Positions 449 through 14,314 of a stretch of 33,410 nt of DNA are shown piece by piece. The position numbers were made by a program, and so were the translations under genes. The stretch is from a virus: positions 1 through 33,410 of IMG/VR virus record IMGVR_UViG_3300042527_000123; one strand, 5' to 3'. Numbering within the stretch: the stretch's first letter is position 1; the number at the start of each line of letters is the position of its first letter. Below the pieces are notes generated by a model that saw only the letters and a list, made by a program, of their open reading frames with translations, made no database searches and was not told the DNA's origin.

Positions 449-809
449 CATTTGGCCCGTGCTAGAACACTACGGGTGGGTACTCCCCGCCCCCCGTGGA
501 GTGTGGCAGTCAGTACGGTGCCATGTGCACGAAGACCAGCACGCATCCTGCCGCGTCAGCCAAGACGCAGGCGTCATCAAATGCCTAGGGTGCGAGTTCA
601 AAGGCAGCGCAATAGACGTGGTTCGGCACTACGAAGGGATCGGTTACAAGGATGCTGTCAGTCGATGCGAGGAAATTACTGGCGGAAGCGGAGTGGGCGT
701 ACTACAGTCAAGTAGGGGATATAGCCGACTATCTTCTAGGTCGCGGGATCGACGGGGAAGCCGCACGTATACACCACCTCGGCTACGTAAAAGAACCAAT
801 GATCGGTGA
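429..809 (+). CDS. DNA primase zinc-binding domain (CHC2-like), frame 1 of a split primase
   Basis: The 126-residue frame carries C31-x2-H34 and C52-x2-C55, the zinc site of CHC2-type primases. It is followed by the typical helix SAIDVVRHYEGIGYKDAV. Such domains help primases bind the single-stranded template. From about residue 90 onward the sequence is Arg/Ser-rich and looks non-coding, while a TOPRIM frame opens at 652 in another phase. The zinc finger is therefore either a separate polypeptide or the front half of a +1 frameshift product joined to the TOPRIM part. It starts at ATG 429 or 432, overlapping the upstream stop by 20 bases. Confidence 0.75.
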   Translation: MMSQQFDIWPVLEHYGWVLPAPRGVWQSVRCHVHEDQHASCRVSQDAGVIKCLGCEFKGSAIDVVRHYEGIGYKDAVSRCEEITGGSGVGVLQSSRGYSRLSSRSRDRRGSRTYTPPRLRKRTNDR

Positions 810-1269
810 TGACGAGATGCGTGGCCGTCTGGCAATCCCCTATCTCACGCCTTCAGGTCCAGTCGATATACGTTTTCGATCCATCCACCCCGACGACTCC
901 CCCAAGTATTTGTCCCGTGCCGGGTCACAGCAACACATCTACAATGTGCTTGCCTTCCAAGATGACTCCGATATCATGTGTGTTTGTGAAGGTGAGATTG
1001 ACACGATCATCGTTAACACAATGGTTGGCGTACCTGCCGTGGGTATGCCTGGTGCTAACGGTTGGAAGAACTGGTATGCGCGTGCGTTCGCGGACTACCG
1101 GAAAGTATTCGTCCTAACAGACGGGGACCAGGCAGGTAGGGACATGGGTAAGAAGATTATGCAAGCGATTGACGTGGCCGTTGTGGTTCCTATGCCTGAC
1201 GGTATGGATGCTAATGAAGTCTATCTCCAAGAGGGAGCGGACGGTATCAGGAAGAGGTTGGGGTTGTGA
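652..1269 (+). CDS. DNA primase TOPRIM domain, frame 2 of a split primase
   Basis: A 205-residue frame that overlaps the zinc-finger frame by 158 bases. The N-terminal helix (IADYLLGRGID) is the usual primase lead-in. The TOPRIM signature is CEGEID at 112-117 (catalytic E113/E115) and VLTDGDQAG at 154-162 (acidic pair D157/D159), preceded by the PKYLSRAGSQ segment seen in phage primases. It should make RNA primers for phage DNA synthesis. The ATG at 652 has no well-spaced ribosome site, since AAGG touches the start, so a fused product made by frameshifting remains possible. No helicase domain is attached. Confidence 0.8.
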   Translation: MLSVDARKLLAEAEWAYYSQVGDIADYLLGRGIDGEAARIHHLGYVKEPMIGDDEMRGRLAIPYLTPSGPVDIRFRSIHPDDSPKYLSRAGSQQHIYNVLAFQDDSDIMCVCEGEIDTIIVNTMVGVPAVGMPGANGWKNWYARAFADYRKVFVLTDGDQAGRDMGKKIMQAIDVAVVVPMPDGMDANEVYLQEGADGIRKRLGL

Positions 1270-2537: not shown

Positions 2538-3151
2538 ACGAAGGTGACAGCATCACCACTAACGATCTGAAGATCGCCAAGCAGGGTGCCATGTCAGCAA
2601 ACAGGTCCGGTCGTGGACTCGTCGCACCCGATGACCTCATTGCCGAAGCGAACATGTGGATGGTGCAGCATGTGGACAAGGTGGTGCTGTGGCACGGGCA
2701 AGGTAGGCATGGGCAGAACAAACTACGCAACGCCTGCCGTCAACGCTGCTTGACTGTCATCGCTAAGGAGCGACGCAAGCGGTCAGGGCTGCAGCCCGGT
2801 GACGTGTTCTACTACACCCCGCAGATGATCCGTGAACTGTTGCCTGACATTTTCGATGAGGACGACTGGACTGGTGGGTCCAACTCCCCGTCTTCAGAGT
2901 TACGTGGACCGTCACGTCCCGCTGAAGGCAACAACCGTCTGGCGATGATCGCTGACATTCGATCCGCATACTTCTACCTTCCGAAACGTGACCAGCAGTT
3001 CCTGTCCGACATGTACAAGGACGGTGGCCTGCCCGTGGATGTGATGAGTGTGCAGTGGGAAGTCACTGAGCGCACTATCCGTAGACGTGACGACAGGATC
3101 ATGGAGAAGATGGTTGAACGTTTGGGTGGCGAGCCACCGTGGGCACGCTAG
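2531..3151 (+). CDS. Putative sigma-factor-like HTH DNA-binding protein
   Basis: About 206 residues from GTG 2531, which overlaps the upstream stop; ATG 2590 is an alternative start. The N-terminal half (DDLIAEANMWMVQHVDKVV, then KLRNACRQRCLTVIAKERRKRSG) resembles the helical region-2 part of phage sigma-like proteins. The C-terminus (LPKRDQQFLSDMYKDGG ... VTERTIRRRDDRIMEKM) reads as a region-4-like helix-turn-helix. A factor redirecting host RNA polymerase would suit a gene between replication functions and glycosyltransferases. The family assignment is an inference from the helical pattern; a plain HTH regulator is the alternative. Confidence 0.5.
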   Translation: MVDEGDSITTNDLKIAKQGAMSANRSGRGLVAPDDLIAEANMWMVQHVDKVVLWHGQGRHGQNKLRNACRQRCLTVIAKERRKRSGLQPGDVFYYTPQMIRELLPDIFDEDDWTGGSNSPSSELRGPSRPAEGNNRLAMIADIRSAYFYLPKRDQQFLSDMYKDGGLPVDVMSVQWEVTERTIRRRDDRIMEKMVERLGGEPPWAR

Positions 3152-3720
3152 ATAACGTGTGGGTCACTGTCCCTGTCGGTGAGAGGGAACAGTACCTACC
3201 CAACCTACTCATGGGGTTGGTGGATTTCTATGACAGGATAGTGTTCGTCAACAACCACCGTGGATACACGACCTATCCTGGCGTGCACCACGTTGAAGAC
3301 TATGGACCCACGAACATTTACCGCTGGTGGAACACTGGCATCAACTACGCGCAACGTCACGGTGCAGAATACGTCGCCGTGTTGAACGACGACCTGGAGT
3401 TTGACACGGACTTCATCCGGCAATTCCATACCCACCTAGTAGGGAATAACCTGGCTATCGCTGACATGCACAACACCGGCAACGGTGGCGGGGCAGCATG
3501 GATCATGGACCTTAAGTACGGGCTCAGGTTGGACGAACGATACCGCTGGTACTACGGTGACACGGAACTGTTCAACCGTGCGATAGAGATGGGCAAGTTT
3601 GGGAAGTTCGTGTACGACAACTTCCGGCACCTAAACCCCAACGGCCACCTGGTATCGGACCCAGAGTTGGGTGCACTGGTCGCTGAAGATGAGGCACTGT
3701 ATTGGAGCAGACATGTTTAA
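3139..3720 (+). CDS. Glycosyltransferase, GT-A fold (family 2-like)
   Basis: 193 residues from GTG 3139. The Rossmann-like start (DNVWVTVPVGEREQYLPNLL) and the acidic metal-binding motif AVLNDDLEFD (about 76-85) fit a GT-A transferase that binds a nucleotide sugar through a divalent ion. GGGAAWIMD and the C-terminal EDEALYW are typical acceptor-side segments. It overlaps its neighbours by 13 and 8 bases and opens a run of three rightward transferase genes. Targets could be phage DNA, a virion protein or a host surface glycan; the sequence does not say which. Confidence 0.75.
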   Translation: MGTLDNVWVTVPVGEREQYLPNLLMGLVDFYDRIVFVNNHRGYTTYPGVHHVEDYGPTNIYRWWNTGINYAQRHGAEYVAVLNDDLEFDTDFIRQFHTHLVGNNLAIADMHNTGNGGGAAWIMDLKYGLRLDERYRWYYGDTELFNRAIEMGKFGKFVYDNFRHLNPNGHLVSDPELGALVAEDEALYWSRHV

Positions 3721-4423
3721 GAAGATTGATTACGACAAGAAGTTCGTCATCGGAACCCCACTCGTGGGCTGGAAGTGTGACAAGCACGAGGACATGTCGT
3801 GGCTGGAGCAGTCGCACCGCATCCTAGAACGTTTCCCAAACGCCATGTTCATGGCGGCTTTCGAGGTTGACCGCATGTTTGACTTGGAAAAGTTTGACCG
3901 TGTTATTCGTGGGCTCGCTGACATTGGAGGCACGTACTGGACGTACATGATCAACGACAACGAGAAGACAGTGAACGGGGGGAACCGGCTAATACGGATA
4001 GAGACGGGCAGGAACCTGGTGCGTGAGTACGCGCAGCGGCAGGAAGGAGTTGAAGCGGTCCTGTACGTGGACTCTGACACGCTGCTGACGCCAGAGATCA
4101 TTGAGGCCATGATGGAAGTGGACCGTGCACTTGTCGGTGTGCATGTGCCACAGTACAACTTGAACGGGCCATTCGTGAACGGTGACCGACGCCTGCAGGA
4201 GCATTGGACGACAGCGGGGATGCTGCTCGTCAACGCACCCGCATGTTGGGACATACCGTGGGGTCACATCAACGTGCGTGGCATGAGTGACGACCCAGCA
4301 TTCCAGTACCTCGCATCCCAGTTACCGTATGGCATGACGTGGGTTCGCAAGGACGTGCACGCCCAACACAAGGGCCATTTAATAGCGGTTGAGCAGCGTG
4401 GGATACCGGAGCGTAATGTCTAA
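3713..4423 (+). CDS. Glycosyltransferase, GT-A fold
   Basis: 236 residues from ATG 3713 (MFKKIDYDKKF). The longer upstream frame lies in the preceding gene and lacks a good start. Motifs: FVIGTPLVGWKCD at the N-terminus, an R-NLVREYAQRQEGVEAVLYVDSDTLLTPE block whose VDSDT is the DxD metal site, then GVHVPQYNLNGPF and TTAGMLLVNA. This pattern matches phage-encoded GT-A enzymes of the anp1/family-2 type. It lies between two other transferase genes with 8-base overlaps, so the three products are probably made together and may act in one pathway. Confidence 0.75.
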   Translation: MFKKIDYDKKFVIGTPLVGWKCDKHEDMSWLEQSHRILERFPNAMFMAAFEVDRMFDLEKFDRVIRGLADIGGTYWTYMINDNEKTVNGGNRLIRIETGRNLVREYAQRQEGVEAVLYVDSDTLLTPEIIEAMMEVDRALVGVHVPQYNLNGPFVNGDRRLQEHWTTAGMLLVNAPACWDIPWGHINVRGMSDDPAFQYLASQLPYGMTWVRKDVHAQHKGHLIAVEQRGIPERNV

Positions 4424-5150
4424 ATTTGAAATCTGGATCAACAACTACTACCACATGCACGGTGGGAACCGTGCCTTGCATGTGTTGCGTGACGAACTAC
4501 TGGTGCGTGACGTGGAAGCGTGGATGGCGTACGAGCGGCATGACCCTGACGCTGTGGCCGTGTATCCTGAGATCACGGGCGACAACCCAGGCAACCACGA
4601 CAAGGTGACACGGTGGCTGTTGAACACACCGACACAACCATTGCCCAGTGACCCTGCGTGGGCGTGGGAGAAGAACATGGGTGAGGACAAACTTCTCACC
4701 GTGAACATTATTGAGTTCGACCTGTTTCGTCCTTCCAGTAACAGTCGAAGCGGCACCGCATACTGGGTGGGGAAAGGTGTGAAGGATGAGAGTGTCATAC
4801 CGACTGGTAGTATTGAGATCACTCGCGGGAACTACACGACACGCAAAGAGATAGCGGAACTACTGTCCAGCATCAACTATCTCATCTCGTTCGACCCTTT
4901 CACAGCCATGAACCTAGAGGCCGTGCTGTGTGGAACCCCAGTCCTGGTGCAGGGCCATCACCCTGTCATGTCTAGGCAGCAGATCATCGACCACGGTTGG
5001 ACACCTTTCGGTGTGGCGTGGGACATGGAAGAACTAGATGAGGCACGGGCACAAGTACACTTAGCGTGGGACCATTACCGTAGCATGATCCCAGTGTTCA
5101 ACCGTAGGGTAGATGAGTTTGTTGAGAAAACCACGAGACTGTTCGGCTAG
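4416..5150 (+). CDS. Glycosyltransferase, GT-B-like (WsaF-type pattern)
   Basis: 244 residues from ATG 4416, overlapping the previous stop by 8 bases. Useful segments are WINNYYHMHGGNRALHVL at the N-terminus, VYPEITGDNPGN and VTRWLLNTP in the middle, and ISFDPFTAMNLEAVLCGTPVL at about 168-188. The last is the donor-binding E-A-x-x-x-G-x-P feature of GT-B retaining enzymes. The YPE ... NP ... RWLLN pattern is familiar from WsaF-like rhamnosyl or glycosyl transferases. Its stop shares CTAG with the convergent transferase on the other strand. Confidence 0.7.
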   Translation: MSKFEIWINNYYHMHGGNRALHVLRDELLVRDVEAWMAYERHDPDAVAVYPEITGDNPGNHDKVTRWLLNTPTQPLPSDPAWAWEKNMGEDKLLTVNIIEFDLFRPSSNSRSGTAYWVGKGVKDESVIPTGSIEITRGNYTTRKEIAELLSSINYLISFDPFTAMNLEAVLCGTPVLVQGHHPVMSRQQIIDHGWTPFGVAWDMEELDEARAQVHLAWDHYRSMIPVFNRRVDEFVEKTTRLFG

Positions 5151-6253
5151 AATGCTGACTTGTAGATCCCTGTTACCGTCACGGCCTGTGACTTGTGGTT
5201 AGCGAACTTCCCGAAGAAGTCAGTCCACTCGTGGGCACGGGCCTGGATACTGTGGTCCTTGATCGTAAGGTTCCGTTGCACTGCGGCTTCACGTTTCCGT
5301 GTCTTGTAGTCAAGAAGTTCAGTCAAGTTGCGAACCCAGTCGTCTGCGGTACGTGCCACACGACCGACACCTTGCTGCGATAGCAGTTCATACTCAGGCA
5401 ACGCTTGCGCTACGAACGGAATGTTCGATGCGGCGTACTCTAGTCCTTTGATGGTGGACTTGGCACGGTTGAAGTCGATCTCTGACAGGAACACGCAACC
5501 AATATCGAACGTCAGCATCTCGTGATACTTGTGCAACGGCATCATCCGTGACTTGATCATCCTGCCCACGGGCACACCGACTTCCTTCTGGAACTCTGGC
5601 GCGTCAGGCATGTGACCAGCATGATAGAACATCAGGTCATGCTCAGTGAGGAAGTCAGGCAGCCAGTCCTTTAGCCCATCTAAATCGTTAGACCGCCACT
5701 TCAACGCACCCGCCCACCCAAGCACGGGCTTACGGTTCTTCACGTCATGCTTAGCGAACTGGTCAGGGTTGATACCGTTACGTATCATCACCACGTTGTC
5801 ACGGAACTGCGAATAGTATTCCAGCAGGAACGGTGTCGTCACGGTAACCCAGTCGGCAGCCATGATCACAGCCTGATAGTGGTCCCTGTTCGCAACCTTA
5901 TTCTTCTCCGGGTCGGTGATCTCGTAAGCAAAGTTGGCCTCATGCAAACCGGGGTAGAAGTCGTCCACATCCACAACCACAACCTGACCTACATCCTGTG
6001 CCTGTTTGATTTGCATGGGCACCCACCTGTGCATCAGCATTTTCATCACGATCACGTCGAAACCGAACCTGGCCTGTGACCTGTTCAACCTGACACCGAA
6101 ACCACGTTCAGTTGCGAATGCGGGTGGACCGAACACTGTATCTGCATTACGTAGCGTGTTACGTGGCAGCAGGCAACGGTAGTAGGAGCAGCCACTGGGT
6201 CGTAGTATGCCTTGGTCTAGCAGCATGTCCTCCGCAACGAAGCCAACCCTCAT
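5147..6253 (-). CDS. Glycosyltransferase, GT-B fold (GT4-like)
   Basis: 368 residues, the last gene of the leftward block. It has an N-terminal Rossmann-like part (MRVGFVAEDMLLDQG, SGCSYYRCLLP) and a linker reading VIMAADWVTVTTPFLLEYYSQF and VVMIRNGINPDQF. The C-terminal domain has PVLGWAGALKWRSNDLDGL and FNRAKSTIKGLEYAASNIPFVAQ; the conserved K-x2-x-E is K-G-L-E here. This is the classic layout of GT4-type enzymes. Its ATG overlaps the upstream membrane peptide stop (ATGA). Its stop is shared with the rightward transferase operon, so the two transcription units end face to face with no spacer. Confidence 0.8.
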   Translation of the reverse strand: MRVGFVAEDMLLDQGILRPSGCSYYRCLLPRNTLRNADTVFGPPAFATERGFGVRLNRSQARFGFDVIVMKMLMHRWVPMQIKQAQDVGQVVVVDVDDFYPGLHEANFAYEITDPEKNKVANRDHYQAVIMAADWVTVTTPFLLEYYSQFRDNVVMIRNGINPDQFAKHDVKNRKPVLGWAGALKWRSNDLDGLKDWLPDFLTEHDLMFYHAGHMPDAPEFQKEVGVPVGRMIKSRMMPLHKYHEMLTFDIGCVFLSEIDFNRAKSTIKGLEYAASNIPFVAQALPEYELLSQQGVGRVARTADDWVRNLTELLDYKTRKREAAVQRNLTIKDHSIQARAHEWTDFFGKFANHKSQAVTVTGIYKSAF

Positions 6254-11787: not shown

Positions 11788-11831
11788 ATATCCACAACAA
11801 TATCCACAACCTGTGGATAACCTGTGGACAA
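11788..11831. other. Cluster of four DnaA-box-like 9-mers (candidate origin)
   Basis: ATATCCACA at 11788 and 11800 read on the + strand. TGTGGATAA (11812) is the reverse complement of the perfect DnaA box TTATCCACA. TGTGGACAA (11823) is the reverse complement of TTGTCCACA. The start spacing is 12, 12 and 11 bases, about one helical turn, with two boxes in each orientation. AT-rich sequence follows within 200 bases. Confidence 0.55.
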
Positions 11832-12020
11832 CTCGGGTCTAGTCTGCCGACGCCTTATTCCCTCCATATCCTACTAGGTTGGTGGGGAATACGGCATACC
11901 CTGGGGGGTGTCGGGTCCTGTATTGCCTATATTCCCTAGTTGTTGGGTAGGGTATGGGATAGTTGAGCGTTCAACTACCCAATCTTGACCCCGGGTTTTT
12001 AGCAACCGGCCACCCACATG

Positions 12021-12197
12021 TATATATATAAGGGGGTTTTGGTTGTGCGTGATATTGTTGTTTTGACTGTATAGTTGTGGTTGAGGTTTGTCCTATTTTA
12101 CCCTGGTTTGGTAGTATTCTTTTGTAACGATTTGGTTAAGTTTCTGATTTTGGTGTCCGAAAAACCGGAAAAAACGAGGATATATATATAGGGGGTT
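12021..12197. repeat. Duplicated element TATATATATA-GGGGGTT
   Basis: The element occurs at 12021-12038 (with one extra A before the G run) and at 12181-12197, 160 bases apart. The second copy's G run is the left arm of a stem-loop. Alternating TA tracts melt easily, so they could serve as unwinding elements or promoter -10 regions. Confidence 0.55.
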
Positions 12198-12326
12198 CTT
12201 CGGGCGCTACGAACCCCCGTCCCAAGAGCGCCCCGGACTTTAGGGGAGGGGCGCGGCGGTGGGTGTCCACTAAGGTTACCACCCACCTTGCGCCATGATA
12301 GCCACTATCCCAGGCGCCGTGGCTAT
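12191..12326 (+). other. Four consecutive stem-loops upstream of terminase
   Basis: The stem-loops are GGGGGTTC/GAACCCCC (12191-12218), GCGCCCC/GGGGCGC (12228-12254), GGTGGGTG/CACCCACC (12258-12287) and ATAGCCAC/GTGGCTAT (12298-12326). Each has a perfect 7-8 bp stem and a 12-14 base loop, with gaps of 3-10 bases. This is far more fold than chance would give. Candidate roles are packaging (cos/pac) recognition or a structured 5' leader. Confidence 0.55.
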
Positions 12327-12385: not shown

Positions 12386-12414
12386 GCCAAGACTCTTCCT
12401 GTGCCTGTCTTGGC
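12386..12414 (+). other. Stem-loop enclosing the terminase start codon
   Basis: GCCAAGAC (12386-12393) pairs with GTCTTGGC (12407-12414). The GTG start (12401) lies in the 13-base loop. No Shine-Dalgarno sequence precedes the GTG, so the hairpin may either hide or present the start. Confidence 0.5.
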
Positions 12415-14314
12415 TTATACCGGAAGGTTTGAAACTTTGGCCGCTCGTGCTGGTCGGAAGACAGGCCAGACTGTTGAGGCCGCGAAGCAGGAGTTCCTGA
12501 GGAACTTCCAGCGTGGCTTGAACGTGGAGCAGTCGATTCAGGCTGTTGGCCGTAACCGTTCCACCTATGAGAGGTGGCGGCGGGACGATAAGGATTTCGT
12601 GACCGCCGTTGAGCGGATCAGGTCGCTGGAGCGTATTTCTGGGCCGCGTGAACGTGACTGGATGCCGTTCCCTGAGTTCTCCGAGAAGTACCTGGACGCC
12701 CGTGTGTTCCCTCACATGGGGAATGTGGTGGATTTGATTGAGGGCCGTGAGCCTTCTTGGGTGCACCCGTCGATGGTGTTTGAGCCTGGTGAGCGTGACC
12801 TGGTGATGGTGAACATGCCACCGGAGCACGCCAAGACGACTTCTATCACTATCAACTATGTGGTGTACCGCATTTGCATGGATCCGAACATCAGGGTGAT
12901 CGTGGTCAGTAAGACGGCTGAGATGGCGAAGAAGATGCTGTACGCCATCAAGACCCGTTTGACGCATCCCCGCTATGATGAGATGATCGCGGACTATGGC
13001 CCGTCTGGGGGGTTCGATAAGAACTCTGAGGCGTGGAACCAGTCGATGATCTACATTTCTGATGATGCCCGTGACTCTGGTGAGAAGGACCCCACGGTTC
13101 AGGCCCTGGGTATCCGGGGCCACATTTACGGTGCCCGTGCAGATTTGATCATCATGGATGACTGCGTGGATCTCACGAACGCCCACGAGTACGATAAGCA
13201 GATTGACTGGCTGCAGGCTGAGGTTATCTCCCGCGTCAGCGCCACGGGTTCTATGCTGATCGTGGGTACGAGGCTGGCGTCTAAGGATTTGTATTCGGAA
13301 CTGCGTGACCCTCACAGGTACCCGGATGAGTCTTCCCCCTGGTCGTACCTGTCTATGCCTGCCGTGCTGGACTTCTCTGACCAAGCCGACGACTGGGTTA
13401 CACTGTGGCCTAGGTCGAACCAGCCGGAACCTGGTACTCGCGGTGTCGAACCTGACGTTGATGGTTTGTTCCCGAAGTGGGATGGGCCCCGCCTGTCACA
13501 GAAGCGTAGGCGCGTGTCGCCTCGCGCGTGGGCTATGGTGTACCAGCAGCAGCAGGTCGCGGACGATTCCGTGTTCAACCCTGAGGCTGTCCGTACCGCC
13601 ATCAACGGCAACCGCATGACTGGCCCTATACCTAGGGGCATGGTGAACTGCCGCGAAAACGGCATGGACGGTTTGATCATTGTCGCAGGTCTTGACCCGG
13701 CAACGTCTGGTCACACTGCCGCAGTGGTTATCGGCCTGGACATTCAAAACCAACGCCGGTACGTCCTGGACGTGTTCAACAAGCCAGGTATAACCCCTGA
13801 GGCCATGCGGGAAATGATCCGTTCGTGGACGGAACGCTACAAGATCGTTGAGTGGCGCATTGAACGTAACGGCTTCCAGGGCTTCCTGGTGCATGATCGT
13901 GAGATTAACGAGTTCTGTGCCGCACGCGGAACCGTGATCAAACCCCACTTCACGGGCCAGAATAAGCATGACGCTGACTTCGGTGTCGCCTCCATGACCA
14001 CCCTTTTCACTGGGTGGGAGGATAAGCGGCAGTTGGTTGAGTTGCCGTCTACGCACGGTAACGAGGCGGCGAAACTGCTCGTGGAACAACTGGTCACTTG
14101 GCACCCTGACGCGCCGAAGAACCAGAAGACAGACATTGTTATGGCCCTGTGGTTCGCGGAACTTGCCTGCAGGGATCGGGTTATGCTCGCATCAAACTAC
14201 ACCAGAACACATGTGAACAACCCATTCTTGACGAAGTGGGACCGTGACCAGCAGCGCACAGTCAGCCTTCTGGAGGCTGAAGCGGCTGGTGCGTGGAATC
14301 CAATCGGAGCGTAG
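12401..14314 (+). CDS. terL: Terminase large subunit with N-terminal HTH
   Basis: 637 residues. Residues 28-70 form a helix-turn-helix-like module (FLRNFQRGLNVEQSIQAVGR, then STYERWRRDD), perhaps doing the DNA-recognition job of a small subunit, since no separate small-subunit gene is seen. ATPase motifs: VNMPPEHAKTTS (138-148, Walker A variant), ADLIIMDDCVD (247-257, Walker B) and VGTR (288-291, coupling). The nuclease has GLDPATSG with D432, RIERNGFQG near 486, and a C-terminal KTDIVMALWF. It pumps DNA into the prohead and cuts concatemers. The GTG start lacks a ribosome site and lies in a hairpin loop. Confidence 0.92.
   Translation: MPVLAYTGRFETLAARAGRKTGQTVEAAKQEFLRNFQRGLNVEQSIQAVGRNRSTYERWRRDDKDFVTAVERIRSLERISGPRERDWMPFPEFSEKYLDARVFPHMGNVVDLIEGREPSWVHPSMVFEPGERDLVMVNMPPEHAKTTSITINYVVYRICMDPNIRVIVVSKTAEMAKKMLYAIKTRLTHPRYDEMIADYGPSGGFDKNSEAWNQSMIYISDDARDSGEKDPTVQALGIRGHIYGARADLIIMDDCVDLTNAHEYDKQIDWLQAEVISRVSATGSMLIVGTRLASKDLYSELRDPHRYPDESSPWSYLSMPAVLDFSDQADDWVTLWPRSNQPEPGTRGVEPDVDGLFPKWDGPRLSQKRRRVSPRAWAMVYQQQQVADDSVFNPEAVRTAINGNRMTGPIPRGMVNCRENGMDGLIIVAGLDPATSGHTAAVVIGLDIQNQRRYVLDVFNKPGITPEAMREMIRSWTERYKIVEWRIERNGFQGFLVHDREINEFCAARGTVIKPHFTGQNKHDADFGVASMTTLFTGWEDKRQLVELPSTHGNEAAKLLVEQLVTWHPDAPKNQKTDIVMALWFAELACRDRVMLASNYTRTHVNNPFLTKWDRDQQRTVSLLEAEAAGAWNPIGA

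Follow-up and report, generated by a model that had tools for sequence, protein, structure and literature searches.

To our knowledge, work on what host DnaA does in phages has dealt mainly with lambda, P1 and T5, and the replication start of most lytic actinophages is not known. In the described systems, DnaA-binding DnaA boxes occur in the origin region of lambda (PMC3985674), the injection-stop signal of T5 was described as carrying DnaA boxes (PMC13250531) and an origin was predicted with Ori-Finder for a Pseudomonas phage (PMC11512268). We found a published hint of an end-related role for such boxes only for the T5 injection-stop region (PMC13250531). DnaA boxes at the ends of actinophage genomes or upstream of their terminase genes are not described in the literature that we found, which left out most subscription journals, in agreement with the statement in the original prediction that origins of this sort are rarely recognised in actinophages.

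The DNA analysed here is a 33,410-base IMG/VR virus record, called the window throughout. Four DnaA-box-like sites had been predicted in it, one of them an exact consensus on the opposite strand, and all four are present with start spacings of 12, 12 and 11 bases, box 3 being the exact minus-strand copy (Table 1). We take the sequence of box 4 to be the exact DnaA box usually given for high-GC actinobacteria, which has a mismatch to the E. coli form. Over the whole window near-matches are about as numerous as expected (19; null 16.1 +/- 3.9), and what is exceptional about these boxes is only their clustering, not their total number: four sites within 36 bp were found in 0 of 400 simulated 33-kb sequences and three sites in 0.5% of the simulations. 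We counted as a cluster three or more sites close to TTRTCCACA, beyond chance, and the window array is one. Its boxes partly repeat each other (AACCTGTGGAT/AACCTGTGGAC) and may have originated by duplication; given this partial repetition, recurrence in relatives is stronger evidence than clustering. The inverted pair formed by boxes 2 and 3, with its 8-bp stem, also gives a terminator-like hairpin score at 11819-11801 on the minus strand. Inspection by eye of the DNA adjoining the last box revealed no DnaA-trio-like run of triplets.

Table 1. Features of the window around the DnaA-box array and in the genes discussed in the text
Feature	Position	Strand	Remarks
Split primase, Toprim part	652..1269	+	phrog_849
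DnaA box 1	11788..11796	+	ATATCCACA, 1 mismatch
DnaA box 2	11800..11808	+	ATATCCACA, 1 mismatch
DnaA box 3	11812..11820	-	exact TTATCCACA; inverted pair with box 2, kept in nearest relatives
DnaA box 4	11823..11831	-	exact TTGTCCACA
CTAGTCTGCC element	11839..11848	+	CTA|GTCTGCC, invariant in the nearest relatives covering it; boxes abut it
TTGACCCCGGGTTTTTAGCAACCGG	11985..12009	+	by eye, similar to the right-hand border of the Beephvirinae terminal repeat (..CCCGGGGTTGTTAAAC..)
AT-rich tract with two TATATATATA runs	12021..12190	+	kept in relatives; candidate unwinding region
Perfect 8-bp inverted repeat GGGGGTTC/GAACCCCC	12191..12218	+	just after the TATATATATA tract; strongly conserved among relatives
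Terminase large subunit, terL	12401..14314	+	phrog_38; portal gene next

The recurrence of the array was studied in 80 terL relatives. Upstream of terL, at 0.4-1.3 kb, arrays are present for instance in L002-L007, L019-L024, L028, L035-L037, L060 and L063, and the box spacing peaks at 11 bp (31 cases) and 12 bp (17). Of the loci in which 700 bp or more precede terL (57 in all), 12 have three or more boxes in 40 bp, against a mean of 0.025 and a maximum of 1 for 200 permuted motifs used as a control, and 17 have two or more boxes in 13 bp (permuted motifs: mean 0.315, maximum 5). Clusters are concentrated in the same place, with 16 in the 68.5 kb upstream of terL versus 1 in 491 kb elsewhere. 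The boxes are kept although the flanks, the copy number (2-9) and the orientation vary; when the nearest relatives are aligned, the inverted pair ATATCCACA(N3)TGTGGAYAA is retained and the left flank replaced. In 61 clustered sites from 14 representative loci, positions 2, 4, 8 and 9 never vary, TCCACA forms a nearly invariant core and the variation falls mainly on positions 1 and 3, which is also typical of known DnaA boxes. To judge from these alignments the boxes are under selection, since they are kept while the flanks diverge, although not in all relatives: several with a long enough sequence upstream of terL have no array. No DnaA-box cluster was found in the Streptomyces Beephvirinae, whose ends carry several copies of CAAAWCGGACA instead, and an iteron search in the relatives without boxes returned a different motif, TATCGGACAT, in L061. 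A repeat unlike the DnaA boxes, ATGTCCGWTTTG (CAAAWCGGACAT), has its copies concentrated in noncoding DNA at the genome ends of Streptomyces Beephvirinae (L082, L203, L204, L207) and occurs also near the leftward promoter of some relatives (upstream of terL in L003, L004 and L060; L061); it is possibly the site of a phage factor. Because the arrays recur while flanks, number and orientation differ, and permuted motifs almost never do so, host DnaA very likely binds the array. The recruitment of host DnaA proposed in the original prediction is well supported as far as sequence can tell, the consensus being kept in the clustered sites where the flanks change.

The nearest named relatives of the window are the Streptomyces Beephvirinae, with a TerL about 46% identical, and by sequence comparison the window's phage group is a sister group to them, not a named genus. 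A WhiB gene and the kinship with Streptomyces phages point to an actinobacterium as host. The only host genome contigs matched were a Streptomyces contig at 48% and a contig from a beta-proteobacterial MAG at 46%. One 46% TerL relative (L221) sits on a short contig that binning assigned to an uncultured beta-proteobacterium, and is probably misbinned or from a different host. In DNA-level searches against named phages, covering 1-25 kb of the window in near mode and 11.0-12.5 kb in distant mode, no match was obtained, and Rfam and tRNA scans found nothing. Near the left part of the window, where 5147-6253 (-) and 3139-5150 (+) were noted, there is a glycosyltransferase-family gene (phrog_7162) whose neighbouring open reading frames look similar. 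A close relative, G002, measures 41,264 bp once a 127-bp end overlap is removed, and encodes a 259-residue DnaB-type helicase, the zinc and Toprim halves of a primase, a RusA resolvase and a RecB-like exonuclease. The phage-group proteins scanned, which cover part of what the relatives encode, included nothing recognisable as an initiator, a loader or a polymerase. A helicase and primase of its own but no initiator would be expected of a phage that uses host DnaA.

Our preferred reading, held tentatively, is that the array is a docking site for host DnaA at the junction between the genome end and the terminase gene, and probably an initiation site. According to this scenario, the genome ends would be joined in a circle or concatemer, with the array at their junction, where it separates the leftward small genes from the rightward terminase and structural genes; DnaA would oligomerise on the helically phased boxes and help to open the AT-rich tract at 12.02-12.19 kb, the short DnaB-like helicase and the split primase of the phage would then load, and host polymerase would copy the genome. 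The surroundings are as had been predicted: AT-rich sequence with TA tracts lies nearby, and the site separates divergent modules, the leftward small-gene block ending near 11.7 kb, followed by the array and then by the rightward terL. Only three 100-bp stretches of the window are less stable than 12051-12150, which has 33% GC; the tract, which lies 190-360 bp away with its near edge about 190 bp from box 4, does not directly adjoin the boxes. The conserved inverted repeat after it may be a terminase or terminator element. GC skew, suggested earlier as a check, was rejected as evidence for an origin: left of the array it is +0.088 for plus-strand genes and -0.169 for minus-strand genes, with no switch beyond gene direction, and as it tracks gene orientation it gives no replication signal. 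Phages often lack a switch of strand composition at the origin. The designation as a likely phage origin therefore survives in part: the helicase and split primase with no recognised initiator and the AT-rich tract speak for it, while the skew that follows the genes and the several relatives devoid of an array speak against it. A start of replication at the array, rather than a role only in end handling or promoter control, has in our estimate a little less than an even chance.

The association of the array with terminase genes and with the genome terminus is an unexpected result, which the original prediction had missed. In the Beephvirinae FlowerPower, Manuel and Immanuel3, terL starts 0.6-0.7 kb from the genome end and the terminal repeats, of 253-276 bp, begin with GTCC. 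Because terminal repeats start at ACA|GTCCC in Beephvirinae and at ATA|GTCC in Samisti12, we infer a putative left physical end of the window genome at CTA|GTC, cut before 11842; the boxes would then stand at -54, -42, -30 and -19, and the array probably abuts the physical end. Direct alignment of the window's intergenic DNA to Beephvirinae ends did not score clearly better than shuffled sequence, the TTGACCCCGGGTTTTTAGCAACCGG likeness to the repeat edge is alone not statistically significant, and the contig ends of relatives, used for mapping the terminus, fall in different places. G002 and G006 have exact 127-bp overlaps at their ends, which were considered as a terminal repeat and rejected, as they look like an assembler k-mer overlap. 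At its N-terminus, TerL matches the small-terminase family phrog_4044 over residues 23-71 (window 12401-12610), which suggests a fused DNA-recognition domain. Cultured phages with deposited ends lend independent support, and there the distances are explicit: boxes stand at -79, -68 and -57 from the right end in Arthrobacter phage BillyTP, in which the gene for the small terminase begins at left-end base 65, and at -92, -80, -69 and -57 from the right end in Arthrobacter phage Seahorse, while Streptomyces phage Samisti12 has boxes at -94, -71 and -58 before a terminal repeat of 10,666 bp and Karimac a pair at -93 and -69 before one of 12,590 bp. All four phages thus have an array within about 100 bp of the physical end, and its placement relative to the cut is almost identical in the Arthrobacter phages and in Samisti12 and Karimac.

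The same association is seen beyond the relatives of the window. A motif-only scan of IMG/VR with TGTGGATAACCTGTGGATAA, a box pair spaced by 11 bp, gave at least 120 loci, and among those listed a terL-family gene lies within 4 kb of the array in 55. Considering the terL reading frames near arrays in the IMG/VR matches listed, the array is upstream in 54/56 and within 2.5 kb in 53/56, whereas positions drawn at random in these loci gave 17.7 on average and 29 at most. The array-linked terminases among these matches form 6 clusters at 30% identity and 11 at 40%; phrog_38 was matched by 40 of the 50 scanned, and 20 of the 22 families listed are terminase or unannotated. A second gene family is present in 24 of the array loci listed, mostly 225-520 bp from the array, and its longest member weakly matches a small-terminase family. 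In named phages, a four-box array was matched in 391 records, a list to be read as illustrative and not as a count of true ends since many deposited records are rotated. They include T5-like records with arrays inside annotated terminal repeats, the SP6-like Klebsiella phage Kp7 (L222) with an array at bases 61-222 of its record, and the N4-like phage DL64 with an array near its end. SP6-like and T7-like phages also have arrays near their ends. The first 240 bp of Kp7 contain many TGTGGATAA-type repeats. Some Microbacterium phages have arrays in mid-genome, and phased DnaA-box arrays were also seen in Microviridae, including gokushoviruses, which are small single-stranded DNA phages.

These observations bear on a serious rival, to which we give a lower chance than to the preferred reading, namely that DnaA bound beside the cut would assist, as an architectural or pausing factor, when terminase assembles and cuts or when the DNA enters in stages, with replication starting elsewhere. 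The action of IHF at lambda cos is an analogue for DnaA in terminase assembly or cutting, and entry in stages has been proposed for the T5 injection-stop region. SP6-like and T7-like phages are known to encode their own replication system, and their arrays point, at least there, to a role other than initiation. An end-related role is favoured by this and by the near agreement of box-to-cut distances among unrelated phages: they lie between -94 and -57 in an Arthrobacter group of 53-56 kb and in Samisti12, whose repeat is 10.7 kb. Arrays precede terL in six or more TerL clusters, which points the same way, as do the many loci in which the array directly precedes a small-terminase-like gene, the T5-like arrays inside the terminal repeat with the boxes of the T5 injection-stop signal (PMC13250531), and the conserved CTAGTC element that the boxes abut in the nearest relatives. 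On the other hand, Annadreamy and Kenrey have their box pair about 6 kb from the terminal repeat, some Microbacterium phages have arrays in mid-genome, the terminus of the window is a putative one, and the noncoding gap at a genome end may simply be the one free space left for any cis element.

It is still less probable that the array acts in transcription, DnaA on the boxes activating or repressing a leftward early promoter as near lambda pR. Control of the leftward promoter had also been proposed in the original prediction, and the position of the array upstream of the leftward block agrees with it, while the promoter scan gave no sigma-70 match in the array region. On the minus strand, TTGACG and a weak TATCTT lie about 30 bp off (11758-11728), L003 has TTGACA-N17-TACTCT at the matching place, and the lambda origin region has DnaA-binding boxes (PMC3985674); in BillyTP, however, the annotated genes on either side of the array all run in one direction. 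Very improbable is a decoy function, in which boxes near the genome end would titrate host DnaA and stop the initiation of host replication: L036/L037 have up to 8-9 boxes and the repeats of Kp7 would suit this role, but two to four boxes per incoming genome would presumably be too few to titrate DnaA before replication. Finally, the idea that the sites bind a phage repressor or form an RNA hairpin or terminator, their likeness to DnaA boxes being incidental, starts from the stem of boxes 2 and 3 with its terminator-like site and is likewise very improbable: the same 9-mer occurs in unrelated phages of many hosts, and in the clustered sites mismatches concentrate at positions 1 and 3 while TCCACA hardly varies. 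The hairpin or terminator version was rejected because in L063, BillyTP and Seahorse every box is on a single strand, so that no such hairpin can form.

The array is placed beside genome ends and terminase genes time and again, across six or more TerL clusters and among cultured phages of Arthrobacter and Streptomyces, and this suggests that host DnaA and phage genome ends are linked in general, which is open to test in laboratory strains. A stronger proposition, for which we see a limited chance, is that docking of host DnaA at the cut site is widespread, has arisen repeatedly and serves the ends and not only replication, the window being one instance; if true, what is served would be terminase cutting, concatemer processing or staged entry. 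In either case the conserved DnaA array is a testable cis element.

Compared with known systems, the window resembles the bacterial oriC-type clusters by its several R-type boxes at helical spacing and its AT-rich tract in the same intergenic region; unlike oriC, it has no dnaA gene, its tract is about 190 bp off, a terminase gene adjoins and the relatives differ in having 2-9 boxes. With the injection-stop region of the T5-like phages, which are lytic, it has in common that noncoding DNA close to a genome end carries DnaA boxes (PMC13250531), but the T5-like arrays lie several kb inside a long repeat, whereas the window array is upstream of terL, beside the putative actinophage end. Lambda, in which host DnaA acts on the region of pR and the origin (PMC3985674), parallels our reading of an effect on replication or an early promoter region, except that lambda initiates with its own O protein and no O-like protein was recognised in the window group. 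The Beephvirinae FlowerPower, Manuel and Immanuel3 differ by having no DnaA-box cluster and by the concentration of CAAAWCGGACA copies at their ends, and have in common with the window group a metallophosphoesterase, a sigma-like factor, a split primase and a short DnaB.
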